Of a stretch of 64,000 nucleotides of DNA, positions 46,330 through 60,637 are shown piece by piece. Each line of letters begins with the position of its first letter. The stretch's first letter is position 1. Source of the DNA: Maritimibacter sp. (lineage in GTDB: Bacteria > Pseudomonadota > Alphaproteobacteria > Rhodobacterales > Rhodobacteraceae); assembly GCA_017792445.1 (NCBI GenBank), contig CP051232.1:1178001-1242000 (forward strand). Reading direction: 5' to 3'. Position numbers and translations under genes: made by a program. The notes beneath the pieces were generated by a model. That model was not told the DNA's origin and made no database searches. It saw only the letters and a list, made by a program, of their open reading frames with translations.

Positions 46330-46405
46330 GCCGCTGTAGCTCAGCTGGTAGAGCACGTCATTCGTAATGATGGGGTCGGGGGTTCGAGTCCCTTCAGCGG
46401 CACCA
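46330..46405 (+). tRNA. tRNA-Thr (anticodon CGT)
   Basis: A complete 76-base cloverleaf: acceptor GCCGCTG/CAGCGGC, D arm GCTC/GAGC, anticodon stem CGTCA/TGATG with loop TTCGTAA and anticodon CGT (reads ACG, threonine), T loop TTCGAGT, discriminator A and an encoded CCA end. The T stem has two G-T pairs at its outer end. Downstream of hemY, probably with its own promoter. Confidence 0.95.
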
Positions 46406-47181: not shown

Positions 47182-47520
47182 CCATCAATCTAAACAGAAG
47201 TCACAGACACAGCATTCAACCGAAGCGAAATGTGAACCCCAAATTAACCACTGGACACGCCTCGATTTCGCCACGGAGATACCACAATGTCGGCGCGGTG
47301 TATGCACTTTTACCGAAAGTTTTCATAAGTTTTCCGCAACCATTTCTTAACCTGACGCACCTAGCGCCCTGCGAATCTGGGGTGCCAAATCGCAACACTT
47401 GGCGCGGGAATCGGCAGCTTTCCGCTGATGCAAGCTGTAATCCGCCGATTGACCCGGGGTCCGTTCGCACTTTGGAAACAAAGTGGTAAGCGTCGCGCCA
47501 TTGGTCCAATGGGCAATGGC
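47182..47520. other. AT-rich regulatory region between divergent exopolysaccharide genes
   Basis: Unusually AT-rich for the window, with ACTTTTACCGAAAGTTTTC near 47307-47325, CATAAGTTTTCC just after, and scattered TTAACC motifs at about 47244 and 47348. It must hold the promoters of the sugar transferase and the ATPase. No coding potential stands out, and I could not fix -35/-10 boxes. Confidence 0.55.
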
Positions 47521-48423
47521 ATGGCGCGCATTAAGCTTTATACAGATTTCTTCAAGTTCGAGGACAACCCGTTCACGCTCGTCCCCGATCCTGAGTACCT
47601 GTACTGGTCGCCGCAGCACCGGGAAGCCTTCGCGATCTTCGAATTCGGTATCATGTCGCTGGCTCCGATCACGCTGCTGACCGGGGAAATAGGTGCCGGG
47701 AAGACCACGCTGATCCAGGCGATGCTGCCGAAGCTCGACTCGGACGTGACGGTCGGGCTTGTGTCGAACGCGCAGGGCGACCGCGGCGAACTGCTGCAAT
47801 GGATCCTCTATTCGCTGGGCGAGGGCTTCCGCGCCGACGCGGGCCACGTCCAGACTTTCGAGCGGCTGCAAGAGGTGATCCTGCGCGAATACGCAGCGGG
47901 CCGCCGGATCGTGCTGATCTTCGACGAAGCGCAGAACCTGTCCGAGGACGGGTTGGAAGAGCTTCGCATGCTGACCAACCTGAACTCGCGCAAGGATGTT
48001 CTGGTGCAGCTTGTCCTCGTCGGCCAGCCGGAACTGCGCGAGATGGTAAACCGTCCCGGCATGCATCAACTGCTGCAGCGCGTGGCTGCCAGCTATCATC
48101 TGAAGAAGCTCGAAAAGCGCTATGCCGCGGACTACATCCGGCACCGCGTGCGGATCGCGGGCGGCACCGGGGACGAATTCTCGGATTGCGCTTGCGACGC
48201 GATCTACGACGCGACGAAGGGCGTGCCGCGGCTGGTGAACCAGTTGTGCGAATTCACCCTGCTGTATGCTTGGGCCGGCAAGGTGAAACGCGTCGATGCC
48301 AGTACGGTGGGAGACGTGTTGGCGGATGGCGTGTTCTTCCGCGGCCATGACCCCGATCTAGACCCCAGCGTCGCCAGCCTGAAACTACGGACGAGTTACC
48401 CGGGAACGTCCCCCGTGGTCTGA
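47521..48423 (+). CDS. ExeA/GspA-like AAA ATPase
   Basis: 300 residues with Walker A GEIGAGKTT (55-63), Walker B VLIFDEAQNL (131-140) and sensor VLVGQPELREM. It begins MARIKLYTDFFKFEDNPFTL, the N-terminus of the ExeA/XrtA-associated ATPase family. Such ATPases help pass exopolysaccharide or secretion machinery across the wall. Unlike GspA it has no C-terminal membrane segment or peptidoglycan-binding domain. The ATG at 47521 was chosen because conservation starts there, although the frame is open back to 47428. Confidence 0.85.
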   Translation: MARIKLYTDFFKFEDNPFTLVPDPEYLYWSPQHREAFAIFEFGIMSLAPITLLTGEIGAGKTTLIQAMLPKLDSDVTVGLVSNAQGDRGELLQWILYSLGEGFRADAGHVQTFERLQEVILREYAAGRRIVLIFDEAQNLSEDGLEELRMLTNLNSRKDVLVQLVLVGQPELREMVNRPGMHQLLQRVAASYHLKKLEKRYAADYIRHRVRIAGGTGDEFSDCACDAIYDATKGVPRLVNQLCEFTLLYAWAGKVKRVDASTVGDVLADGVFFRGHDPDLDPSVASLKLRTSYPGTSPVV

Positions 48424-48444: not shown

Positions 48445-49482
48445 TCAGTCTGCCGGCGGCGCGACAGAAGCGCCGGCAAGGAAGGTGCACCCTTGCAGCA
48501 CGGTATGAACCGGCGCGTCCGGCGTGGCGATGCGACGGCGCAGCATCCGCACCGCCTCGCGCCCCATTTCCCGCCGGTCGACGTCCAGCGTTGTCAGCCG
48601 CGGGGTCGCCATCTGGCTCCAGCCGATGTTGTCGAAACCGGTGACCGAGAAATCGTCCGGCACTTTCAGCCCCGCCTCCCACGCCGCCTGCAGCACACCC
48701 AGCGCCATCAGGTCGTTGGCACACACCGCCGCCGTCCATTCGGGCTTGCCATGGGTGGCAAAGAAGCGGCGGAAGTGCTCGTAGGCGGTTTCCTCGCGGT
48801 CGTAGCCGATATTGATCACCTCGGCCTCGACCTCGGGATGTGCGGCGGCAACGTCGCGGAAAGCGGCAAGCCTCAGTTTCGGGTTCTGGCGCAGGTTCCC
48901 GACGAGGAACGCGATCTTGCGGTGCCCGGCTGCGATCACGTGCTCGGTCATCATCGCCGAGCCGGAATAGTTGTCGGGCAGGATCGCATCGAACCGCATC
49001 TTCGGGTCGATATTGTTCACGATGACCATCGTGCCCTCGTCGCGGAAATACTCGGACAGGTCGTCCGGCAGGTCGGCGTAGAAACAGATCGCGTTGCGGG
49101 TCTGATGGTCGCCCATGATGCCCCGGATGCGATCCAGCGTGATGTCCGCCTCGGGCATCAGGTATGGGAAGATGTCGACGCCGTGCTCGGCTGCCGCATC
49201 CTTCACCCCATCGAAGTTCTCCTGGAACACCTGGTGCAGACCGCCCGTGACAGGGTGCATCGGCAGGAACACCGCGACCCGTTCAGACACCAGCGCCTCG
49301 GGGACGGAATATCCCATGCTGCTGGCGATCTCGAGGATGCGGGCGCGCACCTCGGGCCGGGTGCCCGGAGCACCGGACAGGGCACGCGAGACCGTGCTGA
49401 TGCTCACCTCGGCGCGCCGGGCGATGTCCGCCTGGTTGATCTTGCGCGGCGCGGCGGCAGTTTTTGCGCGGCTCTCGCTCAT
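48445..49482 (-). CDS. LacI-family transcriptional regulator
   Basis: 345 residues: a LacI helix-turn-helix (INQADIARRAEVSISTVSRA, near the start), the hinge helix, then a periplasmic-binding-like ligand domain with VAVFLPMHPVTGGLHQVFQE, ILPDNYSGSAMMTEHVI and SVTGFDNIGW. It lies at the edge of a two-operon carbohydrate-type locus. A palindrome (TGATTTGCGCAAGTGC, 49512-49527), almost identical to one between the divergent operons, sits 30 bases ahead of its own start, which implies autoregulation. The ATG at 49482 was chosen; an in-frame GTG at 49500 overlaps the ribosome site GGAGG. Confidence 0.95.
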   Translation of the reverse strand: MSESRAKTAAAPRKINQADIARRAEVSISTVSRALSGAPGTRPEVRARILEIASSMGYSVPEALVSERVAVFLPMHPVTGGLHQVFQENFDGVKDAAAEHGVDIFPYLMPEADITLDRIRGIMGDHQTRNAICFYADLPDDLSEYFRDEGTMVIVNNIDPKMRFDAILPDNYSGSAMMTEHVIAAGHRKIAFLVGNLRQNPKLRLAAFRDVAAAHPEVEAEVINIGYDREETAYEHFRRFFATHGKPEWTAAVCANDLMALGVLQAAWEAGLKVPDDFSVTGFDNIGWSQMATPRLTTLDVDRREMGREAVRMLRRRIATPDAPVHTVLQGCTFLAGASVAPPAD

Positions 49483-49511
49483 GGATATCTGTCCTCCCAC
49501 GGGTCAGCGGC

Positions 49512-49527
49512 TGATTTGCGCAAGTGC
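49512..49527. promoter_or_regulatory. LacI operator in front of the regulator gene
   Basis: TGATTTGCGCAAGTGC, with the perfect core TTGCGCAA at 49516-49523. It is 30 bases before the regulator start codon and matches 14 of 16 bases with the element at 55005-55020, so it is very probably a binding site of the same LacI protein. Confidence 0.8.
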
Positions 49528-49559
49528 CGGAATTTTGCAACCCGCTCCGCCGCCAAAAC

Positions 49560-50783
49560 TCAGACTGCCTTCATTGAATCACGCGCCGTTCCATAGTGCC
49601 GTGCCAGCAGGGCCACGATCACAAGCATTCCGATGCAGCCAGCGACAGAGACCGGGGCCAGCCCAAGGCGGTCCGCAAGCACGCCCATCGCCATCGCGCC
49701 AATCGCGGGACCCGCGCGGAAGGTCATGCCGAACAGGCTCATGATCCTGCCGCGCATGTTGGCCGGAGCCGACACCTGCATCACCGTTTGCGCCGACACG
49801 CCACCCGCAGCGATGGCCGCGCCGTACAGCACCGAGAACGCGATGGCCGCCGTCGCCGTCTGCGACATCGCCAGCCCGATCCCGCCCACGACCGCCACAC
49901 CCGCGCCGACGTAGGACAGGCGCACCAAGCCGCCGACCCCGCCAAGCATGTTGGCGAAACCCGCGATGATCGCGCCAAGGCCCATGGCAGAGCTGAGCCG
50001 CGCCAAAGTCTCGGCATCCCCCGACAGGGTGACGTCTGCCAGTTCGGGCAGCAATTCACCAATCGGTCGCAGCAGGAAAGCCGCCGCCACGAACAGCGCG
50101 AAGATCGGGCCAGAGCCGGGCGCGGTCGCGACGAAGCGGAAGGCGGACCACGTCTCGGCCAGTACCGAGCCAGAGCTGGTCATCCTGTCGAGCGGCGCGA
50201 ACCGCACCAAAGCAAAGCCCAGCCACGACAGCGCCATCAGGGCGGCCGTCACCCAGAAGGCCAATGCGACGCCCGACATGGCGATCAGAACACCGGCGAT
50301 GGCGGGGCCGATGAATCGGGCCACGTTGAACAGGATCGAATGTAGAGAGATCGCGGTGCCCAGCTGAGGCCGCGCGCAGACGCCCGTGATCGCGGCATGG
50401 GCGGCCGGCTGGACGAAGCCGGTGACGATCCCGTTCGCGGCCATCATCCCGGTCAGCACCCAGATCCCCAGCGCGTCCTGCCCGGCCAGCAAGGCCATTA
50501 CGCAGAACAGCGCGGTGGCGGCGCCATAGCAGGCGAGAAGAACGCGGCGCACCTCGATCCGGTCTGCCAATACGCCGGCCCACGGTCCGATCAGCAAGGC
50601 GGGCAGCATGTCGGCGGCAACGACGACGCCAACCCAGCTGCTTTGCCCGGTCAGCGCCCAGGCATGCCAGCCGCTGACGGTGCGCAGCATCCAATAGGAC
50701 AGCTGCGTCGCGATGTTGCCCGCGGTGTATATGTCGAAGTTGACGTCACCGCCCAACACCCGAAGGTCATGGATCACGGGCAT
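49560..50783 (-). CDS. MFS transporter (EntS-like, MFS_3)
   Basis: 407 residues, about 12 hydrophobic segments, with motif A as GPWAGVLADRIEVRRVLL and LFNVARFIGPAIAGVL, close to the MFS_3/enterobactin exporter group. These usually export siderophores, lipids or drugs. It is the last gene of the leftward arm of the LacI locus, 46 bases after the D-threonine-aldolase-like gene. It may export a product or by-product of the pathway, but nothing in the sequence fixes a substrate. The ATG at 50783 is preferred; one at 50816 adds eleven residues of low quality. Confidence 0.85.
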   Translation of the reverse strand: MPVIHDLRVLGGDVNFDIYTAGNIATQLSYWMLRTVSGWHAWALTGQSSWVGVVVAADMLPALLIGPWAGVLADRIEVRRVLLACYGAATALFCVMALLAGQDALGIWVLTGMMAANGIVTGFVQPAAHAAITGVCARPQLGTAISLHSILFNVARFIGPAIAGVLIAMSGVALAFWVTAALMALSWLGFALVRFAPLDRMTSSGSVLAETWSAFRFVATAPGSGPIFALFVAAAFLLRPIGELLPELADVTLSGDAETLARLSSAMGLGAIIAGFANMLGGVGGLVRLSYVGAGVAVVGGIGLAMSQTATAAIAFSVLYGAAIAAGGVSAQTVMQVSAPANMRGRIMSLFGMTFRAGPAIGAMAMGVLADRLGLAPVSVAGCIGMLVIVALLARHYGTARDSMKAV

Positions 50784-50829
50784 GGACGCCCCCCAGCCAC
50801 CGGCTGCGAAACACATCCATGCCCAAAGT

Positions 50830-51885
50830 TCATTTTGTACAACCTCGAGCAGAGACGTCCCAAAACTCGAAGCTGCCGTCCTTCTGCTTCACCGCGACCT
50901 GATCGTGCAGGTTGCTGACCGGGCAGACGTGGTTGGGCAGGATCAGAACCTTCTCGCCCACGCGCGGACCGGGAAGGTCCGGGTCGATGGTGACCATGCC
51001 GTGCTCTTCCGTCAGCCGCTCGATCACCGCATCGGGATAATCAACAAGCAGACCGTGGCCCTTGTTCGGCGCGGCGACCGGATCGCTGGTCAGCGTCTTG
51101 GTTCCGCAGTCCAGAACGAAGTGGCCGGGCTTCGGCGTGCTGATGACCGTCGCCAACACGTGCAGCGCGCAATCTTCAAGGCTGGCGGCCCCGGCCGCGA
51201 CCGTGTTGCGGTCGTGGTAGATGTAGGTCCCCACCCGCAGCTGATCGACGATGCCAAGTTCATGCTGGTGGAAGGCCTTGGGTGTTCCGCCGCCCGAGAA
51301 CACGGGAAGGCCAAGGCCCGCGGCGTCCAGCAACGGTTTCAGTTCCTTCAGGAAGGCGACCGAGTTCTCGTTGGACGGATAGGTCATCAGGCCGGCAAAG
51401 CGCAGGCCGTCCGTGTCGTTGATCAGTTCGGCAAGCTCGTAAGCCGCTTTCGTGGTCACCACGCCCGTGCGGCCCATGCCGCTGTCGAATTCCACCAGAA
51501 CTCCGATCTCGGCCCCGGACATCGCCGCGGCTTCGCGCAGCGTGTCGACGGCGTTGACGCTGTCGGCGGCGACGGTAAACCGCGCCTTGCCCGCGATGGC
51601 GGCCAGACGGCGCGCCTTCTCCATCCCGATCAGCGGATACGAGATCAGGATGTCCTTGCAGCCGGTGTCCAGCATCACCTCGGCTTCGGTCAGCTTCTGG
51701 CACACCAGCCCCTCGGCCCCCAGCGCCAGTTGGCGCTTCGCCATCTCGACGATCTTGTGCGTCTTGATATGGGGCCAAAGCTTGATCCCGTGCGTGTCGC
51801 AGTAATTCTGCATCCGCTTCAGATTGGCGTCGACCTTGGCAAGGTCGACGACCGGCACGGGGGTTTCGAGTTCGTTGAGGCTCAA
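50830..51885 (-). CDS. D-threonine aldolase/D-serine dehydratase-like PLP enzyme
   Basis: 351 residues, fold-type III: an N-terminal alanine-racemase barrel with the PLP lysine in LWPHIKTHK, GVLVEFDSGMGRTG, VFSGGGTPKAFHQHE, and a C-terminal domain with the metal site PNHVCPVSNLHD. Enzymes of this class either cleave beta-hydroxy-D-amino acids to glycine and an aldehyde or dehydrate D-serine-like compounds; both need a divalent metal. The start overlaps the ABC ATPase stop by four bases. Within this locus it probably acts on an intermediate derived from the imported compound; its exact reaction is open. Confidence 0.88.
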   Translation of the reverse strand: MSLNELETPVPVVDLAKVDANLKRMQNYCDTHGIKLWPHIKTHKIVEMAKRQLALGAEGLVCQKLTEAEVMLDTGCKDILISYPLIGMEKARRLAAIAGKARFTVAADSVNAVDTLREAAAMSGAEIGVLVEFDSGMGRTGVVTTKAAYELAELINDTDGLRFAGLMTYPSNENSVAFLKELKPLLDAAGLGLPVFSGGGTPKAFHQHELGIVDQLRVGTYIYHDRNTVAAGAASLEDCALHVLATVISTPKPGHFVLDCGTKTLTSDPVAAPNKGHGLLVDYPDAVIERLTEEHGMVTIDPDLPGPRVGEKVLILPNHVCPVSNLHDQVAVKQKDGSFEFWDVSARGCTK

Positions 51886-52955
51886 GCGTCAATCTCCGGT
51901 AGTCTGCCGCCAGTGGCGGCATCGAACAGGTGCAGGTGGCCGGGGCGTGGCATCACGTTCAGGCTGGACCCGTCCTCGATTGCAGTCCGTTCACGGAACA
52001 TCACCGTCGACTCGACGCCGCCAATGCTTCCGTAGACGTAGGTGTCAGTACCGGTTTGCTCTACGATATTCGCGTCAAAGGCGAAACCGCCGGACGCAAC
52101 GATATCCAGATGCTCGGGGCGGACGCCCGCCAGAACCTTGCCGCCCTCGGCAACCTTGTAGGCCGCTGGAACCGGCACCGAACCTGCGCCGCTGTCCAGC
52201 ACCAGCATCCCGTCCTTGCAGGTCGCGGGCATCATGTTCATCGACGGCGACCCGATGAACTTTGCCACGAACACCGTTTCGGGCTTGTCGAACAGGTCCA
52301 GCGGCGTGCCGATCTGTTCGATCCGTCCCGCGTTCATGACGACGATCCGGTCCGCCAGCGTCATCGCCTCGATCTGGTCGTGCGTCACGTAGATCGAGGT
52401 GGTGCCGACCTTGTTGTGCAGCGCCTTGATCTCGGTCCGCATCTGCACCCGCAGCTGCGCATCGAGGTTCGACAGAGGTTCGTCGTACAGGAACAGCGAC
52501 GGCTCGCGCACGATGGCGCGGCCCATCGCCACCCGTTGCCGCTGCCCACCAGAGAGCTGTTTCGGGAAGCGGTCGAGATACGGGGAGAGGTTCAGGATCT
52601 CGGCCGCCCAAGCGATCTTCCGGTCGATGGCAGCGGCATCTTCGCCGCGCAACTTCGGCCCGTAGGCGATGTTTTCGCGGACATTCAGGTGGGGGAACAG
52701 GGCGTAGGACTGAAACACCATTGCGATGTTGCGTTTCTGCGGGGGCGTTTCGTTGCACTTCTTGCCCGCGATGAAGACCTCGCCATCGGTGATCTCTTCG
52801 AGACCCGCGATCATCCGCAGCAGCGTGGACTTGCCGCAGCCCGAGGGGCCGACCAGCACCACGAACTCGCCTTCGGGGATCAAGAGGTCCAGCGCCTGCA
52901 GGACCTCTTGATCCCCGTAGCTTTTGCTTACCCGCACCATGCGAAGATCGGCCAT
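51882..52955 (-). CDS. ABC transporter ATP-binding protein (UgpC/MalK type)
   Basis: 357 residues. Walker A GPSGCGKSTLL, Q-loop VFQSYALFPH, signature LSGGQRQRVAMGRAIVREP, Walker B LFLYDEPLSNLD, switch THD, and a C-terminal TOBE-like domain with VLAGVRPEHLD, the features of CUT1 sugar importer ATPases. Its partner permeases and binding protein lie in the divergent operon (55111-58200). One base separates it from the SDR gene and it overlaps the next gene by four bases. Confidence 0.95.
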   Translation of the reverse strand: MADLRMVRVSKSYGDQEVLQALDLLIPEGEFVVLVGPSGCGKSTLLRMIAGLEEITDGEVFIAGKKCNETPPQKRNIAMVFQSYALFPHLNVRENIAYGPKLRGEDAAAIDRKIAWAAEILNLSPYLDRFPKQLSGGQRQRVAMGRAIVREPSLFLYDEPLSNLDAQLRVQMRTEIKALHNKVGTTSIYVTHDQIEAMTLADRIVVMNAGRIEQIGTPLDLFDKPETVFVAKFIGSPSMNMMPATCKDGMLVLDSGAGSVPVPAAYKVAEGGKVLAGVRPEHLDIVASGGFAFDANIVEQTGTDTYVYGSIGGVESTVMFRERTAIEDGSSLNVMPRPGHLHLFDAATGGRLPEIDA

Positions 52956-52956
52956 G

Positions 52957-53766
52957 TCACACGTCCTCCAGGGTCAGTTCGCGGGCCATCTGGTGGTTGC
53001 CCGCCATCAGTCCGCCGTCGATGGGCAGCATCGCGCCCGAGATGAATGCGGCGTCGTCCGACGCAAGGAAAGCGATCGGCTTGGCGATGTCTTCCGGGGA
53101 TGCAACGCGGCCCAGCGGATACCAGCGCTTCAGCCCGTCCATCACGTCCGGCTTCTTGGCCAGCCGCGCATCCCACGCCGGGGTGCGGACGGTGCCGGGG
53201 CAGACGATGTTCGCGCGGATGTTGTACTCGCCGTATTCAGTCGCCATCGTCCGGGTGTAGGACAGAAGCGCCGACTTGGCGGCGCTGTAGCCCGGCTGTC
53301 CGAAGGTTGCGAGGCCGTTCACCGAGCCCACCACGACGATCGAGCCACCAGTCTTCTTCAGCATGTCGATACAGGCGTGGACGGTGTTGAACTGCCCCGC
53401 CATGTTGTCGGCGATCTCGGTGCGGAACGCTTCGGGCGTGGATTTGTCCAGCGTGGTCGACGTGCCGCCGGTGTTCGCGTTGGCGACGACGATGCTGACC
53501 GGGCCAAGCTCTGCCACGGCCTTGTCGACGGCGGCCTTCACCGCATCCGTGTCCCGGATGTCGGCGGCCGCGGCGGCGACCGGATGCCCCTCGGCCTTGT
53601 AGGCGTCGACGGCGGCCTGAACCGCATCGTCCTTGATGTCCATCACGATGACCTTGGCGCCCTCGGCAAGGAACTCCTTGACCACGGCCGTTCCGATGCC
53701 ACCCACCGCGCCAGTCACCAGCGCAACTTTTCCGTCCAGTCGTTTCACCTGACCCTGTCCCATCAT
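52957..53766 (-). CDS. Short-chain dehydrogenase/reductase
   Basis: 269 residues of the classical SDR family: TGAVGGIGTAVVKEF for the cofactor, VANANTGG where NNAG usually stands, catalytic serine in VGSVNGLA, and YSAAKSALL with Tyr and Lys. Later PGTVRTP and the ending GAMLPIDGGL are typical of sugar or hydroxy-acid dehydrogenases. It overlaps the upstream gene by four bases. In this operon it is the likely oxidation step. The aspartate after the second strand (VMDIKD) favours NAD. Confidence 0.92.
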   Translation of the reverse strand: MMGQGQVKRLDGKVALVTGAVGGIGTAVVKEFLAEGAKVIVMDIKDDAVQAAVDAYKAEGHPVAAAAADIRDTDAVKAAVDKAVAELGPVSIVVANANTGGTSTTLDKSTPEAFRTEIADNMAGQFNTVHACIDMLKKTGGSIVVVGSVNGLATFGQPGYSAAKSALLSYTRTMATEYGEYNIRANIVCPGTVRTPAWDARLAKKPDVMDGLKRWYPLGRVASPEDIAKPIAFLASDDAAFISGAMLPIDGGLMAGNHQMARELTLEDV

Positions 53767-54938
53767 ATGGCGGCCAGCGCACGGCCGATCCGGTCGAGAC
53801 CGGACTGCCGCATGTGGCCATAGTTGTAGAAAGCGAAGCCATCGACGCCCGCGTCGGCAAAGCCGGCGACCGTCGCGGCGAATGATCCTTCGGCACGGTG
53901 CTCGGCCGAAGTCGGGCGCAACACCACGCGCATGTCGGAATGCCCGATGTGCTGCGAGACCATCGCGTGATCCGTCAGCGCGGCCTTGCTGTAGAAACAG
54001 ACCTCAAGCCCGTCGCAGGCCTTGTCGATCCCGGCAAGGTCGCTGCCTTCCATCCACGACAACGCAAGCGGCTGATTGACGGACGGAATGATGTGAACGG
54101 TGGCGTCCTTGCGCACGGCTTCGCGGATCTCGGCCACCAATGAGGTCACCACACCGTTCCGCATCCGGATGTATTCACCAAGGTCCGGGTCCAGCAGCAG
54201 GTCGTTTTCCAGCCATAGGCGGTCCGTTGCCGGGTCGGTCTCCTCGGGCGCGGACAAGGCCGACTCGATCCGGGCCTTCACCCGATTCTGAAGACCGTTC
54301 ACATCTATGCCCACCTCTTGCGCAAGCCGTTTGCAATTTGCGCAAAAACATAGCCCCAAGTAAAATTCCAGCCGGGGAGAATCACCGATCAACGCGAACT
54401 CGTGGTGATAGCCGTGGCGGTACGGAAGCCAACCGGGGGTCTCCAGAGACAGACCGGCAATGTCATAGCTATCGGCGATATCGGCGCAAAGCGTCGTCGC
54501 GTAATCCCGCACTTCAGGGGCCGACGGACACAGGCTGTAGTGCAGCGGATCGCCATAGACGTTGCGGGTGATCGCCTCGGGATGCAGGGCGCCGATCCGG
54601 CTGTTGTGCAGCAGAACCGTCCACGCCTGAACGGTCAGCCCGCCATGATCGCACATACGCCCCATGACGTCGTCGGACTGCGCCAGTTCGCCGATTACAG
54701 GCTTGATTCCCTTGTATTTCCCGGGGTTCACGCGGCAGTGCGCAACGCCATCCTCGGGGAAGTAGACCTTGCCCGACTTCCCCTTGGGCCGGATGAACTT
54801 GCCCGCGTGATAGGACGCGGCCACGGCCACGGTGTTGACGCCGATGCCCGCCATGCTGTCGGCAAAAGCGTCCGGCCCCTCTTCCACGAGGTCCCACGTA
54901 TAGGCGTACATTGCGCGGTAGGGCGCTGTTTCGGCCAT
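53763..54938 (-). CDS. Uncharacterised protein, likely glycoside-hydrolase-like TIM barrel
   Basis: 391 residues with no signal peptide. Segments such as GVNTVAVAASYHAGKFI, SYDIAGLSLETPGWLPYRHG and the cysteine-rich LCFCANCKRLAQEVGIDV resemble uncharacterised glycosidase-like barrels in which an FCxxC loop follows a conserved acidic or tyrosine strand end. Other recognisable parts are VHIIPSVNQPLALSWMEG and GFADAGVDGFAFYNYGH. I cannot assign a family number. It is the first gene of the leftward arm and begins 70 bases from the shared operator; a longer in-frame ATG at 54998 would leave no room for a ribosome site. It may process the imported compound inside the cell. Confidence 0.7.
   Translation of the reverse strand: MAETAPYRAMYAYTWDLVEEGPDAFADSMAGIGVNTVAVAASYHAGKFIRPKGKSGKVYFPEDGVAHCRVNPGKYKGIKPVIGELAQSDDVMGRMCDHGGLTVQAWTVLLHNSRIGALHPEAITRNVYGDPLHYSLCPSAPEVRDYATTLCADIADSYDIAGLSLETPGWLPYRHGYHHEFALIGDSPRLEFYLGLCFCANCKRLAQEVGIDVNGLQNRVKARIESALSAPEETDPATDRLWLENDLLLDPDLGEYIRMRNGVVTSLVAEIREAVRKDATVHIIPSVNQPLALSWMEGSDLAGIDKACDGLEVCFYSKAALTDHAMVSQHIGHSDMRVVLRPTSAEHRAEGSFAATVAGFADAGVDGFAFYNYGHMRQSGLDRIGRALAAI
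54317..54346. promoter_or_regulatory. Two operator-like palindromes inside the GH-like gene
   Basis: CTTGCGCAAG (54317-54326) and TTTGCGCAAA (54337-54346), both perfect ten-base palindromes with the same TTGCGCAA core as the sites at 49512 and 55005. Their centres are exactly 20 bases apart. They lie over codons for the FCANCKRLAQ segment, so they could be a coincidence of codons. Confidence 0.45.
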
Positions 54939-55004
54939 TGCATTCCGTCCTGTTGTCTTCGCGGTCTGAACTGCCGCCTTGACGTCGAGGCTAGCCATGA
55001 AAAT

Positions 55005-55060
55005 GGATTTGCGCAAATGCAAAAATTTTCTTGACGGATTTGCGAAACCGCTCCTACCGT
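55005..55060. promoter_or_regulatory. Divergent promoter region with LacI operators
   Basis: GGATTTGCGCAAATGC (55005-55020) contains the perfect 12-base palindrome ATTTGCGCAAAT. A second copy, GGATTTGCGAAAC (55036-55048), lacks one central C and lies 31 bases on, about three turns of the helix. It falls between a candidate -35 (TTGACG, 55031-55036) and -10 (TACCGT, 55055-55060) of the rightward operon, 50 bases before the binding-protein start. A repressor here could block both arms. Confidence 0.75.
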
Positions 55061-55110
55061 TCGGTCATAACAACAATATCACAACTGCGAAAACCAACCG
55101 GGAGAATCTG

Positions 55111-56361
55111 ATGACCACCCATTTCCTGACCCGCTCCGGAAGCGTCCGCACCGGGCTTCTGGCCGGCGCTGCGACGCTTGGCATGATGGCGGCTGCCGCC
55201 GAAGCCGGCACCGTGCGCGTGACCATTCCGGAGTACAGCTCCAACACCCTGCCCTACTTCGAGCAGGCCGCCGAAGCCTTCATGGCCGAGAACCCGGACA
55301 CCACCATCGAACTGGAAATGGTGCCGTGGACCGCGTTGCAGCAGAAGCTGGTGACCGACATCTCGGGCGGCGTGAACGCCGACCTCGCCGTGATCGGCAC
55401 CCGCTGGATCCTCGACTATGCCGAACTGGGTGTGATCGAGCCGCTGGACGACTACATCACCGAGGAATTCTCGTCGCGCTTCTTCGAAGTGTTCCTGACC
55501 CCGTCGGTGATCGACGGCACCAACTACGGCTTGCCGATCGCAGCTTCGGCCCGCGCGATGTTCTACAACAAGGACATCCTTTCGGCCGCCGGCTACGACG
55601 CGCCTCCCGCGACCTGGGAAGAGCTGATGGAAGTGTCGGCCGCGATCAAGGAATCCGCGCCGGATGACGTGTTCGCCTACGGCCTGCAGGGCAAAAGCAC
55701 CGAAACCGACGTCTACTTCTACTATCCGATGTGGTCCTACGGCGGCACCATCCTGACCGAGGACGGCAAGTCCAACGTCAACACCGAAGCCGGCCTGACC
55801 GCGCTGACGATGTACAAGGAAATGATCGAGAACGGCTACACCCAGCCGGGCGTCGTCGACTACGCACGCGCCGACATCGAAACCCTGTTCAAGCAGGGCA
55901 AGCTGGGCATGATCATCACCGGCCCGTTCGTGTCGAAGCAGATTCAGGAACAGTCGCCTGACCTGAACTATGGTCTCGCCAAGGTTCCGGAAGGCACCAA
56001 CTTTGCGACCTACGGCGTCACCGACTCGATCGTGATGTTCGAGAACTCTGAAGTGAAAGAAGAGGCTTGGGCCTTCCTCGACTTCCTGTTCTCCAACGAA
56101 CAGCGCGTGAAGTTCGACGAGGCCGAAGGCTTCCTGCCGGTGAACCGCTTCGAGGCGGAACAGCCGCAGTTCGCCGACAACGAGGACCTCAAGGTCTTCA
56201 CCTCGCTGCTGGCCGACGCTCACTTCGCACCGCTCGTGGGCGGCTGGGAAGAGATCGCCGACGCGACCCTGACCAATCTCCAGGCGGTTTACCTGGGCCA
56301 GGCCGAACCGGCCGACGCCCTCGCCGAGATCGAAGCTGCCGTGAACGGCATCCTCGACTGA
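55111..56361 (+). CDS. Sugar-type ABC transporter substrate-binding protein
   Basis: 416 residues. Signal peptide of about 32 residues (SVRTGLLAGAATLGMMAAAA, then EA). The mature protein has the family-1 binding-protein layout, VRVTIPEYSSNTLPYFEQAA, then WTALQQKLVTDISGGVNADL, FYNKDILSAAGYDAPP, and TTEDGK-like loops. It is the periplasmic receptor for the CUT1 importer, and the first gene of the rightward arm. A GGGAGAA site precedes the ATG at 55111. The ligand cannot be told from sequence by eye. A hairpin terminator just after it probably raises its expression above the permeases. Confidence 0.94.
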   Translation: MTTHFLTRSGSVRTGLLAGAATLGMMAAAAEAGTVRVTIPEYSSNTLPYFEQAAEAFMAENPDTTIELEMVPWTALQQKLVTDISGGVNADLAVIGTRWILDYAELGVIEPLDDYITEEFSSRFFEVFLTPSVIDGTNYGLPIAASARAMFYNKDILSAAGYDAPPATWEELMEVSAAIKESAPDDVFAYGLQGKSTETDVYFYYPMWSYGGTILTEDGKSNVNTEAGLTALTMYKEMIENGYTQPGVVDYARADIETLFKQGKLGMIITGPFVSKQIQEQSPDLNYGLAKVPEGTNFATYGVTDSIVMFENSEVKEEAWAFLDFLFSNEQRVKFDEAEGFLPVNRFEAEQPQFADNEDLKVFTSLLADAHFAPLVGGWEEIADATLTNLQAVYLGQAEPADALAEIEAAVNGILD

Positions 56362-56372
56362 TCCCCTGACTG

Positions 56373-56406
56373 CGGGGCCCTGTTTCGGCAGGGTCCCGTA
56401 CTTTTT
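56373..56406 (+). terminator. Hairpin between binding protein and permease genes (partial terminator)
   Basis: A ten-pair stem (CGGGGCCCTG, 56373-56382, with CAGGGTCCCG, 56389-56398; one G-T pair) around TTTCGG, followed by TACTTTTT. It starts 12 bases after the binding-protein stop, while the permease genes follow without another promoter being seen, so it probably acts as an attenuator. Confidence 0.75.
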
Positions 56407-56438
56407 GGTTTTTCAGACCGGACAGGACGCGACACACG

Positions 56439-57362
56439 ATGGCCGCCGAAACCCAGACCATGACCCCGGCACGCGCGCAGTCGCGCGCAGCCTACGTCAT
56501 GGCGCCTTACCTGATGATCGCGCCGGGGCTGATCCTTGCCTGCTTCATCATCCTTTATCCGTTCTACGCGCTCATCAACACGTCCCTGCGCGAGGTCAAC
56601 CGGTTCGGGATGATCCGCGACCTGAACAATTTCGAGAACTTCACCGAGGTTTTCTCTGACCCGCTGTTCCACGCGGCGATCTGGCGGTCGGTCATCTGGA
56701 CCGGTTCGGTCGTGGGCGGCACGCTGCTGATCTCGGTCGTGACAGCCCTGATCCTGCACCGCCAGTTCTATGGCCGCGCCATCGCGCGGGTGATCGTCAT
56801 GTTGCCGTGGTCGGTGTCGCTATCGCTGCTGGCGGTCGTCTGGCGCTGGGCGCTGAACGCCGAAAGCGGCCTTCTGAACCATTCGCTGATGCAGATGGGC
56901 ATCCTTGACGCGCCGGTGGTCTGGCTGGGCAACGGCACCATCGCCTTCACCGTCGAGATCTTCATCGGCATTCTGGTGTCGATCCCCTTCACCACCACGA
57001 TCCTGCTGGGCGGCCTGTCGGCCATGCCGCAGGACATCTACGAGGCGGCGACGATGGAGGGCGCGACTCCCTGGCACAAGTTCCGCACCATCACCATGCC
57101 GCTGATGCGGCCCTTCGTGAACATCGCGGTCGTCCTGAACATGATCAACGTGTTCAACAGCTTCCCGATCATCTGGATCCTGACCGAGGGCGGGCCGGCG
57201 AACTCGACCGATATCCTTGTGACGTACCTTTACAAGATCGCGTTCAAGTACGGGAAACTTGGCGAGGCTTCGGTCGTGTCGCTGCTGATGGTCGTCTTCC
57301 TGCTGATCTGTTCGATCATCTATCTACGCCTCATCTCGCGGGAGCAGACCTATGGCAGCTAA
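56439..57362 (+). CDS. ABC transporter permease (MalF-like)
   Basis: 307 residues, six likely membrane segments. The EAA loop reads YEAATMEGATPWHKFRTITM, the ATPase-binding signature of this family, and GGPANSTDILVTYLYKIAF is typical of the MalF-like partner. It spans the inner membrane with the second permease, encoded with an 11-base overlap at its end. It belongs to the importer whose ATPase is in the divergent operon. Confidence 0.95.
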   Translation: MAAETQTMTPARAQSRAAYVMAPYLMIAPGLILACFIILYPFYALINTSLREVNRFGMIRDLNNFENFTEVFSDPLFHAAIWRSVIWTGSVVGGTLLISVVTALILHRQFYGRAIARVIVMLPWSVSLSLLAVVWRWALNAESGLLNHSLMQMGILDAPVVWLGNGTIAFTVEIFIGILVSIPFTTTILLGGLSAMPQDIYEAATMEGATPWHKFRTITMPLMRPFVNIAVVLNMINVFNSFPIIWILTEGGPANSTDILVTYLYKIAFKYGKLGEASVVSLLMVVFLLICSIIYLRLISREQTYGS

Positions 57363-58200
57363 AACCATCGATCCCATGGTGCGCCGCTCGTTCCTGATGT
57401 GGCTGGCACTGGCGCCCCTGCTGATCTGCAACCTGTTTCCCTTCGCGGTGATGATCTCGACGGCGCTGACGCCGGAACAGGACATCTACGCGCAGGGCAC
57501 CCAATGGATCCCCTCCCGCCTGACGTGGGAAAACTTCTCGGACATGTGGGAAACGGTGGGCTTCGGCACCGCGCTGGTGAACTCGCTTGTCGTCGGATTC
57601 ATCACCACGGTGATGACCGTTCTGGTGGCCGTTCCCGCGGCCTACGCGATGGCGCGGCGGCCGTTCAAGGGCATGCAGGCGTTCCGGATCTTCCTGCTGA
57701 TCACCCAGATGTTCTCGCCCGTGGTGCTGGTGATCGGCCTGTTCACCCTGATCGTCGGGCTTGGCCTGCTGGACTCGCTGGTGGCGCTGTCGGTGCTGTA
57801 CTGCTGCTTCCACATCGCCGTGGCGATTTGGATGCTGCAAAGCTACTTCGCGTCGATCCCGATCGAACTGGAACACGCCTCTTGGCTGGAAGGCGCCAGC
57901 AAGGCTTACACGCTGCGCAAGGTGTTCCTGCCGCTGGCCGCCCCCGCGATGGCGGTGGTCGCGCTGTTCACCTTCATCGGCGCATGGAACGAGTACGCGC
58001 TGGCGCTGGCGCTGATCCGGTCGTCGGAAACCTACACCCTGCCGCTGAAGATCGCGGCGCTGACGGGTGGCCGTTACCAGATCGAATGGCATCACGTGAT
58101 GGCGGCCACCTTCGTGGCGACGATCCCCGTCTCCATCATCTTCATCTGGCTTCAGCGCCACCTGATCGCCGGCCTGTCGGGCGGTGCGGTCAAGGGCTGA
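57352..58200 (+). CDS. ABC transporter permease (MalG-like)
   Basis: 282 residues, six likely membrane segments, with the EAA-type loop LEHASWLEGASKAYTLRKVF and the usual MalG ending. It starts within the last codons of the first permease (11-base overlap), so the two are made in equal amounts. The pair with the SBP and the UgpC-type ATPase makes a complete CUT1 importer. Confidence 0.95.
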   Translation: MAAKTIDPMVRRSFLMWLALAPLLICNLFPFAVMISTALTPEQDIYAQGTQWIPSRLTWENFSDMWETVGFGTALVNSLVVGFITTVMTVLVAVPAAYAMARRPFKGMQAFRIFLLITQMFSPVVLVIGLFTLIVGLGLLDSLVALSVLYCCFHIAVAIWMLQSYFASIPIELEHASWLEGASKAYTLRKVFLPLAAPAMAVVALFTFIGAWNEYALALALIRSSETYTLPLKIAALTGGRYQIEWHHVMAATFVATIPVSIIFIWLQRHLIAGLSGGAVKG

Positions 58201-58239
58201 GCCGAAACCAACCCTCTGACAGAAAGAAAAGAGGACAGC

Positions 58240-58626
58240 ATGACCAAGGTCATCGAACACTTCACCCACTCTGGCGCCACCGGCACCCCGCCGCTAAGCC
58301 CCGCCGTGCGCGCCGGCGACTACGTCTTCGTCTCGGGTCAGGTGCCCGCCGGTCCCGATGGCGCGATCGTCGGACACGAGATCATCGGCCAGACCAAGCA
58401 GGTCATGAAGAACATCGAAGCCGCTCTGGCGCTGGCCGGTTGCACCATGGACGACGTGTGCAAGACCACCGTCTGGCTGGATGACGCCCGCGACTTCGGC
58501 AAGTTCAACACGACCTACGGCTCGTTCTTCCCGAACGGCTTTCCGGCCCGGACGACCTGCGAAAGCCGCCTGATGGCGAACATCCTCGTGGAAGTCGAAG
58601 CAATCGCCTACAAGCCGCTCGGCTAA
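58240..58626 (+). CDS. RidA-family enamine/imine deaminase
   Basis: 128 residues of the YjgF/RidA family: a start near SGQVPAGPDG, GQTKQVMKNIEAALALAGC, VWLDD, and the conserved Arg 104 in FPARTTCESRL, which binds the carboxylate in RidA, followed by VEVEAIA. RidA hydrolyses reactive 2-aminoacrylate-type intermediates left by PLP enzymes. Its position in an operon with a PLP enzyme and an amidohydrolase suggests that an enamine or imine is formed in this pathway. 40 bases separate it from the permease gene. Confidence 0.92.
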   Translation: MTKVIEHFTHSGATGTPPLSPAVRAGDYVFVSGQVPAGPDGAIVGHEIIGQTKQVMKNIEAALALAGCTMDDVCKTTVWLDDARDFGKFNTTYGSFFPNGFPARTTCESRLMANILVEVEAIAYKPLG

Positions 58627-58671
58627 GCTCCCGCCAGCACCGGGACAACGGAAAAGAACAAGGACAACACC

Positions 58672-59880
58672 ATGACGGCGCAAGCCAAGACCTACGATCT
58701 GGTGCTGAAAGGCGGCCATCTGGTCGACGAGCGGAACGGGATCGACGGTGTCACCGACATCGCGATCAAGGCGGGCAAGGTGGCGGCGGTCGGGAAGGAT
58801 CTCGACCCGCAAGGCGCCACCGTCCGCGATGTCTCGGGCTGCTATGTCAGCCCGGGGCTCATCGACATCCACACGCATGTCTATCACAAGGCGACGTCGC
58901 TGGGCGTCGACCCCGATTTCATCTCGCGCCGCTCGGCGACCACGACGCTGGTCGACGCGGGCAGCGCGGGCGCGGGCAATTACGACGGCCTGCGCGACTA
59001 TGTGATGAAGCATTCGCCCTATAACATCCTCGCCTTCCTGAACGTGTCCTTCCCGGGCATCTTCGGCTTCGACAAGGACGTGCAGATCGGCGAGGCGACG
59101 CTGGCAGAGATGCTGCCGGTGCACCGCTGTGTTCAGAAGATCGAGGAAAACCGCGACAAGATCGTCGGCGTGAAGGTTCGCATTGGCGGCCCCGTCACCG
59201 GCAAATTCGGGCTTGGCGCGCTGGAACTGGCGCTGGAAGCCGCGAACGCCGTCGACCTGCCTCTGATGACGCACATCGGCGGCCCGCCCCCGTCCTATGC
59301 CGACGTCGTGTCGATGCTGCGTCCGGGCGACATCCTGACCCACTGCTACCGGCCCGAGCCGAATTCGGCGATCACCGAGAACGGAGAGATCCTGCCCGAG
59401 GTTCTTGCCGCCCGTGAACGCGGCGTGCTGTTCGACATTGCGCACGGCATGGGCGCGTTCGGCTACGAAAGCGCCGAGGTCGCACTGCGGCACGACTTCA
59501 AACCCGACGTGATCTCGTCCGACGTGCATGTCGTCGCGATCGAGGGGCCGGCGTACGACATGCTGCACACCATGTCGAAACTGATGAACTGCGGCCTGAC
59601 CGTCTCGGAGACGCTGGCGCGGTCATCGAACCGCCCGGCGCTGGCGATCAACCGGCCCGAATTGGGCCACCTTGGCGTGGGCGCTGTCGCCGATATCACC
59701 GTGCTTCAGGTCAACGAGGCCCGGATCACCTTCAGCGACGTGCGCGGGATCAAGCGCGACGGCAACAAGCTGTTCTACCCGGTGGCCGTCTACATGGCCG
59801 GTCGCGAGTCCGAAATCGCCCGGCGACCGTTCGAGGAAGGCAACTACGTGATGCAGCCCTGCCCCTGCGGGACACACTGA
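58672..59880 (+). CDS. Amidohydrolase/deacetylase-family metallohydrolase
   Basis: 402 residues of the amidohydrolase superfamily. Metal ligands: GLIDIHTHVY (His 67, His 69), a carbamylated-lysine candidate Lys 168 in VGVKVRIGG, MTHIGG, LTHCYRP, and the aspartate in VISSDVH. The overall sequence resembles the group that includes Atu3266-like deacetylases and dihydroorotase-like proteins; members remove acetyl or formyl groups from amines or amino acids. In this operon it likely deacylates the imported compound. Substrate not known. Confidence 0.9.
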   Translation: MTAQAKTYDLVLKGGHLVDERNGIDGVTDIAIKAGKVAAVGKDLDPQGATVRDVSGCYVSPGLIDIHTHVYHKATSLGVDPDFISRRSATTTLVDAGSAGAGNYDGLRDYVMKHSPYNILAFLNVSFPGIFGFDKDVQIGEATLAEMLPVHRCVQKIEENRDKIVGVKVRIGGPVTGKFGLGALELALEAANAVDLPLMTHIGGPPPSYADVVSMLRPGDILTHCYRPEPNSAITENGEILPEVLAARERGVLFDIAHGMGAFGYESAEVALRHDFKPDVISSDVHVVAIEGPAYDMLHTMSKLMNCGLTVSETLARSSNRPALAINRPELGHLGVGAVADITVLQVNEARITFSDVRGIKRDGNKLFYPVAVYMAGRESEIARRPFEEGNYVMQPCPCGTH

Positions 59881-59881
59881 T

Positions 59882-60637
59882 ATGGGGTTCGTCCCGAAGA
59901 TCGAGATCTGCGTGGAAGGCATTGACGAGGCGGTTCTGGCCGCCGAGGCCGGTGCCGACCGCGTGGAACTGTGCACCGCCCTGTCGGAAGGCGGGCTGAC
60001 CGCGTCCCCCGGCTTGCTGCGCGAGGCGGCGGCGCGGGTGAAGACCGCACAGGTCATGGCTATCGTGCGCCCGCGCAAGGGCGACTTCCTGTACTCCGAC
60101 GCCGAATACGCGGTGATGCTGGGCGATGTCGCCGCGATCCGCGAGGCCGGACTTCCGGGTATGGTCTGCGGCTGCCTGAACGCCGACGGCACCATTGACG
60201 AGCCGCGCATGAGCGAACTGGTCAAGGCGGCCGGTCCGATGGACGTCACCTGCCACCGCGCCTTCGACATGACCCCCGACGCCTTCGAGGCGTTGGATGC
60301 CCTGATCCGTTGCGGTGTCAGCCGCGTGCTGACCAGCGGCCAGAAAGCCGACGCCCGCGACGGGCTGGAACTTCTGCGCGGTCTGATCCGCCATGCGGCC
60401 GGCCGGATCGAGATCCTTGTCTGCGGGCAACTGTCGCCCTCCGACATCGACCCGCATGACGAGGGGCTGACCGGCTACGAGTTCCATTTCGCCGACGCAA
60501 CGGTCGAACCCGGCCCGATGGAATACCGCAACCCGGACGTGTTCATGGGCACCGACGACGGGGATGCGGAATACGAACGGCGGGTGATCGACATCACGCG
60601 ACTGACGGCGAAGATCAAGGAAAGCCGCGGGCTTTAA
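59882..60637 (+). CDS. cutC: CutC-family protein
   Basis: 251 residues, a TIM barrel of the CutC family: IEICVEGIDEAVLAAEAGAD, RVELCTALSEGGLTASPGLL, AIVRPRKGDFLYSDAEYAVM, CHRAFDMTPD, and GVSRVLTSGQKADARDGLEL. CutC was once linked to copper tolerance, but the evidence is thin and its chemistry is unresolved; the histidine and cysteine in RAFDMTP/CHR are conserved. It begins one base after the amidohydrolase stop, so the two are tightly coupled. Its presence in a catabolic operon points to a metabolic enzyme role rather than copper handling. Confidence 0.9.
   Translation: MGFVPKIEICVEGIDEAVLAAEAGADRVELCTALSEGGLTASPGLLREAAARVKTAQVMAIVRPRKGDFLYSDAEYAVMLGDVAAIREAGLPGMVCGCLNADGTIDEPRMSELVKAAGPMDVTCHRAFDMTPDAFEALDALIRCGVSRVLTSGQKADARDGLELLRGLIRHAAGRIEILVCGQLSPSDIDPHDEGLTGYEFHFADATVEPGPMEYRNPDVFMGTDDGDAEYERRVIDITRLTAKIKESRGL

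Follow-up and report, generated by a model that had tools for sequence, protein, structure and literature searches.

The 64,000-nucleotide window analysed here (Maritimibacter sp., contig CP051232.1, positions 1,178,001 to 1,242,000) carries a locus of 12 genes. On balance, these appear to encode a non-phosphorylative, oxidative route under LacI repression that breaks down an N-acetylhexosamine, with N-acetyl-D-galactosamine (GalNAc) or a small glycoside thereof as the most likely substrate; we infer its steps one by one. A CUT1 importer, judged by its family, would bring the sugar in, and a short-chain dehydrogenase/reductase (SDR) would oxidise C1 to give a lactone or aldonate. GHL, a glycoside hydrolase-like protein, would act on the sugar or sugar acid as a glycosidase or lactonase. 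An amidohydrolase would then strip the N-acetyl group from the N-acetylhexosaminate, as suggested by its alternation with D-aminoacylase/OngB-type enzymes. Based on motifs and the precedent of the ong pathway, a fold-III pyridoxal phosphate (PLP) enzyme, here PLP3, would dehydrate the 2-amino-3-hydroxy acid, and RidA would hydrolyse the resulting enamine or imine to 2-keto-3-deoxy-galactonate (KDGal) or 2-keto-3-deoxy-gluconate (KDG) and ammonia. The kinase and aldolase would be encoded elsewhere in the genome, where candidates were found; the MFS and CutC proteins fall outside the assigned steps.

The locus runs from the LacI gene (48445) to the CutC gene (60637) in two divergent arms, with all frames open. 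From the centre outward, the minus arm holds GHL, the SDR, the MalK-type ATPase, PLP3, the MFS protein and LacI, and the plus arm holds the binding protein, two permeases, RidA, the amidohydrolase and CutC, which together supply the full complement of a CUT1 system (MalK-type ATPase, SBP_bac_1 protein and two permeases). Neighbouring genes overlap or nearly touch (gaps of -11 to 77 bases within arms, with 59 between MFS and LacI), the divergent gap is 172 bases and the best-placed starts are 54938 for GHL and 55111 for the binding protein. The G+C content is 61-66%, compared with 61-69% in the window. The features are as follows:

48445-49500, minus strand: LacI-family regulator (Pfam PF00356 and PF13377)
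49514-49525, unstranded: putative LacI operator ATTTGCGCAAGT with one mismatch, between the MFS gene and lacI
49560-50816, minus strand: MFS transporter (MFS_3, efflux-type; Pfam PF05977, E 4e-28)
50830-51885, minus strand: fold-III PLP enzyme (PLP3), predicted 2-amino-2-deoxy-aldonate dehydratase/deaminase (Ala_racemase_N and D-ser_dehydrat)
51882-52955, minus strand: CUT1 (MalK-type) importer ATPase (ABC_tran and OB_MalK)
52957-53766, minus strand: SDR, predicted N-acetylhexosamine 1-dehydrogenase (adh_short_C2, E 8e-53)
53763-54938, minus strand: GHL, TIM-barrel protein of an unnamed family (from the model fold; free of Pfam and NCBIfam matches)
54336-54345, unstranded: copy of ATTTGCGCAA inside GHL (10-mer scan)
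55007-55018, unstranded: perfect palindrome ATTTGCGCAAAT, putative LacI operator, in the divergent gap between the arms
55111-56361, plus strand: CUT1 sugar-binding protein (SBP_bac_1, E 1.5e-50)
56439-57362, plus strand: CUT1 permease 1 (BPD_transp_1; UgpA/MalF-like)
57352-58200, plus strand: CUT1 permease 2 (BPD_transp_1, E 1e-11)
58240-58626, plus strand: RidA, predicted enamine/imine hydrolase (Ribonuc_L-PSP, E 2e-27)
58672-59880, plus strand: amidohydrolase of the EF_0837/PRK09237 kind, predicted N-acetylhexosaminate deacetylase (NF006689)
59882-60637, plus strand: CutC family protein (PF03932, E 3e-60)

To describe the wider distribution of the locus, we scanned genome contigs for GHL and confirmed 86 stretches, from which we retained 80 loci (individual loci are cited by L number). 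Because gene calling put 59 of the 80 GHL genes in the GHL cluster at first and 69 in a better calling, our counts rest on tblastn places of the window proteins (n = 80 loci); neighbour counts are lower bounds, with 23 of the loci under 20 kb. All 12 genes recur in identical order and strands in five loci, one from Maritimibacter (L001, GHL 91% identical to the window's) and four from Martelella (L003, L005, L006 and L010, GHL 54-55%). Orthologues in these five are 47-89% identical for LacI and 45-88% for the MFS protein, which keeps its position in all five, while permease 2 orthologues are 49-97% identical and adjoin permease 1 in relatives. In the GHL tree, the window falls within a nine-row clade (SH-aLRT 100) and, together with L001-L003, L005, L006 and L010, within a subclade of seven (SH-aLRT 99). 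The GHL gene is uncommon: with the own genome counted each time, 5 of the 385 genomes of the class carry it and 6 of the 398 of the phylum, and among the 22 same-family genomes listed it is confined to the own genome and one other.

Beyond these five loci, the parts of the set recur in a more selective way. The SDR is present in 64 loci and in every one lies directly downstream of GHL and in the same orientation, with aligned ends separated by -9 to 85 (median 27). PLP3-type enzymes occur in 12 loci and D-serine-deaminase-type PLP enzymes in 27, with both in none, and RidA is present in 42 loci, including 35 of the 39 that hold either fold-III PLP gene. DgoK-like genes were seen in 17 loci (15 at at least 71% identity to the L047 DgoK and two at 26%), a PfkB kinase of the KdgK kind in 6, GH31 in 11, a CUT1 binding protein or permease at at least 40% identity in 20, and CutC in 5, plus a partial copy at the cut end of L068.

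These results bear on an earlier note on this DNA, which had described one LacI-controlled unit for importing, deacylating, oxidising and splitting an N-acylated amino sugar or a beta-hydroxy amino acid. The genes that it named are all open and were typed correctly according to Pfam and NCBIfam. Its unit of two divergent arms is borne out indirectly by the recurring set and the putative operator, and its amino-sugar option and sugar-type import by the comparisons below. The whole set is kept together, in order and strand, in the five loci above; scattering in relatives, which it had named as counter-evidence, is absent from these five loci, but farther relatives are modular. A ligand fixed by a well-known binding-protein clade, also named there, was not indicated, as the best match in the Protein Data Bank (PDB) scored 121 bits and no close solved relative fixes the ligand. 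Its MFS carrier is a member of that family but not clearly an uptake carrier, because MFS_3 and efflux-type models match.

The deacylase provides one line of evidence for the pathway. The window amidohydrolase belongs to the EF_0837/PRK09237 kind (NF006689 at 383.5 bits, above the cut-off of 371) and falls short of the narrower TIGR03583 (268 versus 432); PDB entries 2ogj, 2ics, 8je0 and 8wzy are of the same sequence family. One member presumably has acetyl-(R)-mandelate esterase activity, and a literature search on COG3964 enzymes found no paper on these enzymes themselves. Window-type amidohydrolases are present in 20 loci (18 at 69-96% identity; two, L004 and L066, at 46-48%) and D-aminoacylases in 31, with both in none, which takes a minimum of 3 swaps over 51 rows of the GHL tree, or 2 over 49 rows when only amidohydrolases of at least 60% identity are counted. 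The D-aminoacylases match PpOngB, an N-acetylglucosaminate (GlcNAc1A) deacetylase, at 442 bits (L047) and 563 bits (L060). Because the amidohydrolase alternates with the D-aminoacylase/OngB type in related loci, we infer that it deacetylates the same kind of compound, and the deacylation proposed in the earlier note is supported to that extent, as is its RidA clearing an enamine by the frequent company of fold-III PLP genes. The amidohydrolase family is wider than the locus, occurring in 37 of 385 class genomes. Among 30 amidohydrolase loci viewed in stretches of ~4 kb (the window's own being too short to reach GHL), L118, with a 72% identical enzyme, shows GHL and an SDR. A second EF_0837-type amidohydrolase lies in the same genome (G000:C1:3060527-3061588, 49% identical).

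PLP3 shares Pfam domains and the PLP lysine stretch with the fold-III D-threonine aldolase/D-serine dehydratase family and is overall nearest to the aldolases, yet it has the dehydratase metal motif. Aldolases as best PDB matches, and 12 genes without a KDG kinase or aldolase, are what would be expected if PLP3 were a retro-aldolase that cuts the deacetylated hexosaminate to glycine and a four-carbon aldehyde. The active site argues for dehydration instead: His-x-Cys is found in the window enzyme and in 12 of 12 PLP3 relatives, as in dehydratase 3wqc, at the position where aldolases 4v15, 7dib, 6qkb and 7yqa have His-x-Asp. According to the available part of a published account, the metal ligands are His and Cys in D-serine dehydratase and His and Asp in the aldolase, and the aldolase base His193 is missing in D-serine dehydratase (PMC4401734). 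In our alignment to 4v15, the stretch with His193 is gapped in PLP3, which has neither this base nor the His-x-Asp site; a crude QH scan gave a hit in one of the 12 relatives (L001), read as an FHQHE segment elsewhere and not as the aligned base. A RidA gene in the operon also suits an enamine-forming dehydratase. Based on the His-x-Cys motif, we rejected retro-aldol cleavage as the leading view and regard it as improbable, and the substrate being 'split by the PLP enzyme', as previously suggested, is not supported; PLP3 is predicted to be a 2-amino-2-deoxy-aldonate dehydratase/deaminase. The other PLP cluster, of the D-serine-deaminase type, has HPC in 23 of 24 sequences, the 24th being cut off.

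By analogy of steps, the nearest described pathway is the ong route of oxidative chitin use in Pseudoalteromonas prydzensis ACAM 620, as set out in the available part of its report (PMC9537276). There, OngB deacetylates GlcNAc1A and OngC converts the glucosaminate (GlcN1A) to KDG and ammonia; growth on GlcNAc1A requires the RidA gene ongD, and complete pathways are reported in Gammaproteobacteria with one betaproteobacterial exception. Both systems have a deacylase, a fold-III PLP enzyme (in the window a predicted deaminase) and RidA (58240-58626 in the window, the counterpart of OngD), and the proposed window route, like ong, would lead to a 2-keto-3-deoxy acid (KDG in ong) with no prior phosphorylation. 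They differ in that the window deacylase is of the EF_0837/PRK09237 type and not the D-aminoacylase type of OngB, the other 11 genes being without an amidohydrolase. PLP3 is a D-threonine aldolase-like His-x-Cys enzyme, comparable with OngC at the level of fold III. The window has LacI in place of RpiR and CUT1 in place of SSS transport, lacks KdgK among its 12 genes and adds the SDR and GHL, while its genome has no match to a lytic polysaccharide monooxygenase (LPMO) or GH20. Related GHL clusters carry the ong deacetylase and deaminase types.

We therefore considered whether the locus is simply an alphaproteobacterial ong cluster that uses LPMO-derived GlcNAc1A. The step types are the same, the genes of L048, L056, L060 and L064 stand in the order ongCRBD with GHL in the place that ongA takes after kdgK, and PpOngB scores 563 bits against the L060 deacylase, second to 9g5m at 657. 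However, searches of the own genome for LPMO_10 and GH20 gave 0 matches each, which also lowered a chitin/LPMO origin as a candidate, an SDR is needless for an already oxidised substrate, and the importer and regulator differ, so that we give this explanation little weight. The earlier claim that no described pathway has this set was too strong: the exact set was not found in the literature searched, but its core is that of the ong pathway. Searches aimed at an oxidative GalNAc or galactosaminate route gave none among the matches listed. In the available part of another report, a glucosaminate route with glucose dehydrogenase, galactonate dehydratase and a RutC gene is predicted in chitin-degrading haloarchaea; that part names no GHL-like enzyme and mentions unnamed hypothetical genes (PMC12343721). 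The proposed chemistry is thus that of the ong pathway, in a gene set that includes one unnamed protein family.

The proposed N-acetylhexosamine pathway combines three substrate inferences of decreasing strength. The strongest is the 2-amino-2-deoxy-aldonate route, because deacylase, deaminase, Rid, KDG/KDGal kinase and aldolase recur together. Second is the unoxidised sugar as input, suggested by the SDR and by the absence of LPMO and GH20 matches from the genome. The weakest is the galacto configuration, which is indicated by an importer resembling those beside DgoK and an alpha-N-acetylgalactosaminidase-like GH31: the window importer is 43-57% identical to those in L047, L055, L058, L067, L074 and L076 (beside DgoK) and in L057. 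It ranks last because genes of the window clade lack GH31 and many relatives use other importers. The own genome has a DgoK and two KDPG-aldolase-family (PF01081) genes, one of which is 45% identical to the L047 aldolase.

The betaproteobacterial layout behind the galacto assignment consists of GH31, LysR, DgoK, a CUT1 or MFS carrier, RidA, GHL, SDR, PLP and D-aminoacylase, with an aldolase in some loci. L047 and L055 hold GH31, LysR, DgoK (PF05035), CUT1 (46-56% identical to the window's), RidA, GHL, SDR, fold-III PLP, a D-aminoacylase-type amidohydrolase and a PF01081 aldolase; the Pfam check of this layout covered L047. The L047 GH31 has 6m76 (400.7 bits) and 7f7r and 7f7q (397-399) as its best PDB matches, followed by a next match at 194; 7f7r and 7f7q are named GH31 alpha-N-acetylgalactosaminidase and are, with 6m76, one 963-residue protein. 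Across Sapientia, Solimicrobium, Undibacterium, Massilia and Pseudoduganella (L047, L055, L074, L067 and L076), such clusters, for which we saw no published description, share CUT1, RidA, GHL, SDR and fold-III PLP with the window but differ in their D-aminoacylase-type deacylase, D-serine-deaminase-like PLP enzyme, GH31, DgoK and LysR; the aldolase lies in the cluster in L047 and L055, with 29-30% matches in L067 and L076.

The same loci help to judge whether the substrate is instead an N-acyl-D-beta-hydroxy-amino acid of the N-acyl-D-serine/threonine type, degraded by deacylation and PLP dehydration with RidA while the SDR has some other compound to oxidise. In its favour, relatives have D-aminoacylases as their second type of deacylase, an amino-acid permease (Pfam) is found in L062 with like genes in 8 loci, and OngC also accepts D-serine and D-threonine according to the available part of its report (PMC9537276). 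Against this, a CUT1 binding protein or permease is present at at least 40% identity in a quarter of the loci, DgoK, KDG/KDGal kinase and KDPG aldolase occur in bacterial and archaeal relatives, and GH31 is present in 11 of the 80; a serine/threonine route would need neither GH31, kinases, aldolase nor CUT1. We consider it quite unlikely.

Further layouts show much of the same task list recurring with unrelated parts, as seen on plasmids and in haloarchaea and Alicyclobacillus. Labels for DgoK, aldolase, LysR, PfkB, RpiR, Gfo/Idh and NMT1/Tau were initially assigned by eye, and a single representative of each was then checked against Pfam; 'FucP-like' was given by eye (Pfam: MFS_1) and 'KdgK' for the PfkB kinase by context. 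In the Rhizobiales layout, RpiR and an NMT1/Tau-type importer stand with a pair of Gfo/Idh/MocA genes and one or the other deacylase. A 115-residue VOC-like protein without a Pfam match and two Gfo/Idh/MocA families travel with GHL and the NMT1/Tau-type importer (L017 and others); over all 80 loci, the first Gfo/Idh type is present in 28, the second in 25 and the small protein in 20. Andreprevotia, Chitiniphilus and Chitinolyticbacter (L048, L056, L060 and L064) have PLP-RpiR-D-aminoacylase-RidA-PfkB kinase-GHL without an SDR; the Duganella type (L062 scanned) has RpiR, an amidohydrolase-family protein, an amino-acid permease, RidA, GHL and PLP; and in Silvimonas L051 and L054, only GHL was seen of the query genes.

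GHL relatives on plasmids numbered 152 records (114 Rhizobium), and among the plasmid records listed 18 of 20 are annotated 'hypothetical protein'. Five Rhizobiaceae-type records have a CUT2-like importer, Amidohydro_2, a D-ser_dehydrat PLP enzyme and an AstE/aspartoacylase-type deacylase in 5 of 5 and RidA in 4 of 5 (Pfam on one record; one importer, partly absent from the gene table, was recovered by tblastn). L091, L092, L097, L098 and L111 hold the Rhizobium-type cluster, with the GHL relative annotated as hypothetical in four plasmid records. A Haloferax larsenii plasmid has GHL with a CUT1 importer, creatininase, MR/MLE enzyme, SDR, Rid, Eda and KDG/KDGal kinase; Haladaptatus pallidirubidus has it with a CUT1 importer, SDR, MR/MLE, RidA and creatininase; and Alicyclobacillus has it with PTE-family, creatininase, KDGP aldolase and xylulokinase-type genes. 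In alphaproteobacterial L113 and L114, a GHL relative and a CUT1 importer stand next to Gfo/Idh, creatininase and RidA genes in a haloarchaea-like layout. The creatininase, AstE and PTE proteins may act as the deacylases in these loci, in which case GHL has as many as five kinds of candidate deacylase at its side across bacteria and haloarchaea.

GHL itself had no Pfam or NCBIfam match at E 0.001, and its profile gave only chance-level matches to PDB sequences (MtrR, E 0.41-0.64). Its AF2 model (mean pLDDT 89.9) is a TIM barrel, with PgaB, Cwp19, GH42 and GH156 as the nearest structures by Foldseek (TMq about 0.5-0.6), led by the PgaB glycoside hydrolase domain (E 1.7e-12, TMq 0.59). The likeness to PgaB (4p7o) is one of fold, with ~13% identity and no sequence-profile match; matches to viral models were weak (7 at E at most 0.001, best TMq among these 0.52). 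Residues invariant in 41 GHL sequences include H56, K59, H123, E178, H187, H190, H191, E192, R272, E309 and R353 (numbered from 54974), of which E178 lies at the end of counted barrel strand 4 of the model. GHL is probably cytoplasmic, because inspection by eye of those N-termini whose start was discernible revealed no obvious signal peptide. It may be a glycosidase freeing the sugar, which fits the fold, or a lactonase opening the sugar acid lactone, which fits the GHL-SDR pairing; loci without an SDR argue against a pure SDR partner.

The fold would also fit some other N-acetylated amino sugar as substrate, be it an N-acetyl-aminouronic acid, N-acetylmannosamine or an amino-sugar disaccharide; GHL would then be a cytoplasmic glycosidase, since glycoside hydrolases are nearest, PgaB comes first and some PgaB structures hold glucosamine or N-acetylglucosamine. 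CUT1 systems often take oligosaccharides, which counts in the same direction. GHL also stands beside an MFS carrier (9 loci; MFS_1 in L031) and beside amino-acid permeases, where a disaccharide is less natural, and we see this as a minority possibility next to GalNAc or its small glycoside. Tentatively, GHL may be a new family doing an undescribed obligatory step (lactone opening or amino-sugar-acid glycoside release) in a widespread non-phosphorylative N-acetylhexosamine pathway of Alpha-, Beta- and Gammaproteobacteria, Bacillota and haloarchaea, in which deacylase, deaminase and importer are each replaced by unrelated proteins and GHL is kept.

Several observations weigh against the proposed GalNAc-type pathway. 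The galacto assignment rests on betaproteobacterial relatives, the window's 12 genes being without GH31, kinase and aldolase, and the own DgoK shares only 23% identity with the L047 protein. Many alphaproteobacterial relatives use the NMT1/Tau-type importer and two Gfo/Idh/MocA genes instead, so that the substrate may differ between clades. The SDR is missing from 16 of the 80 loci (one cut off by a contig end) and neither deacylase was seen in 29, a count to be read with the short loci in mind (23 of 80 under 20 kb). By score, PLP3 is nearest to D-threonine aldolases (4v15, 191.5 bits). Amidohydrolase 9g5m outscores PpOngB in L047 (514) and L060 (657), and an Alcaligenes-type D-aminoacylase (492) also stands above PpOngB (442) in L047. 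No GHL is seen in the ~4-kb stretches of 28 of the 30 amidohydrolase loci (43-51% identical), 7 of which have a fold-III PLP gene. As a counter-example to the recurring task list, GHL of Haladaptatus caseinilyticus lies near a dipeptide-epimerase-type MR/MLE enzyme and an M20 peptidase, and its surroundings lack an SDR, Rid and kinase. Nor does ong demonstrate the RidA step, since OngC yielded KDG and ammonia there in vitro in the absence of OngD, whose role its authors call unknown in the available part of the report (PMC9537276).

If the pathway is as proposed, GalNAc and related amino sugars would be burnt through sugar acids and 2-keto-3-deoxy-hexonates outside chitin oxidation, bypassing the phosphorylated Nag and Aga routes for amino sugars. 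It would also give the unnamed GHL family a testable function, orphan EF_0837-type amidohydrolases a candidate physiological substrate and the presence of RidA in GHL operons a chemical reason.

With regard to regulation, the LacI protein gives NCBIfam RbsR/PurR-type matches to E 2e-32, under equivalog cut-offs. The 10-mer half ATTTGCGCAA has 4 matches at three places in the window, all within the locus (49514, 54336 and 55007-55018), compared to 0.07 expected, and 0 of 100 shuffles reach 4; because it was picked from the divergent gap, 2 matches there exist by construction and the 2 other places form the test. The full 12-mer with two mismatches allowed has an ordinary count (3 matches, reached by 23 of 100 shuffles), and the perfect 13-mer occurs twice in the genome. 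The core TTGCGCAA lies within the divergent gap of all five full loci (L001, L003, L005, L006 and L010), which is consistent with a palindromic operator at promoters that is conserved in relatives. The copy of ATTTGCGCAA inside GHL might serve as another operator or just reflect how an FCANC stretch is encoded; a GHL-internal TTGCGCAA is at roughly the same coding place in L001, L005, L006 and L010, but not L003.

Finally, the enzymes carry motifs for which we presume the usual meanings: TGAVGGIG and YSAAK in the SDR, the lysine stretch PHIKTHK in PLP3, and HTH, GVKVR, THIG, THC and SDVH in the amidohydrolase. At E 1e-45, the SDR has a single PDB match, 5tt0, itself an SDR whose function is not stated. 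Adjoining CutC, an open reading frame at 60700-62328 has RTX calcium-binding repeats (HemolysinCabind and Peptidase_M10_C matches). On the other flank lie a bacterial sugar transferase (Bac_transf) and an AAA_22 ATPase (46468-48423), with a tRNA-Thr at 46330-46405 beyond the LacI side.

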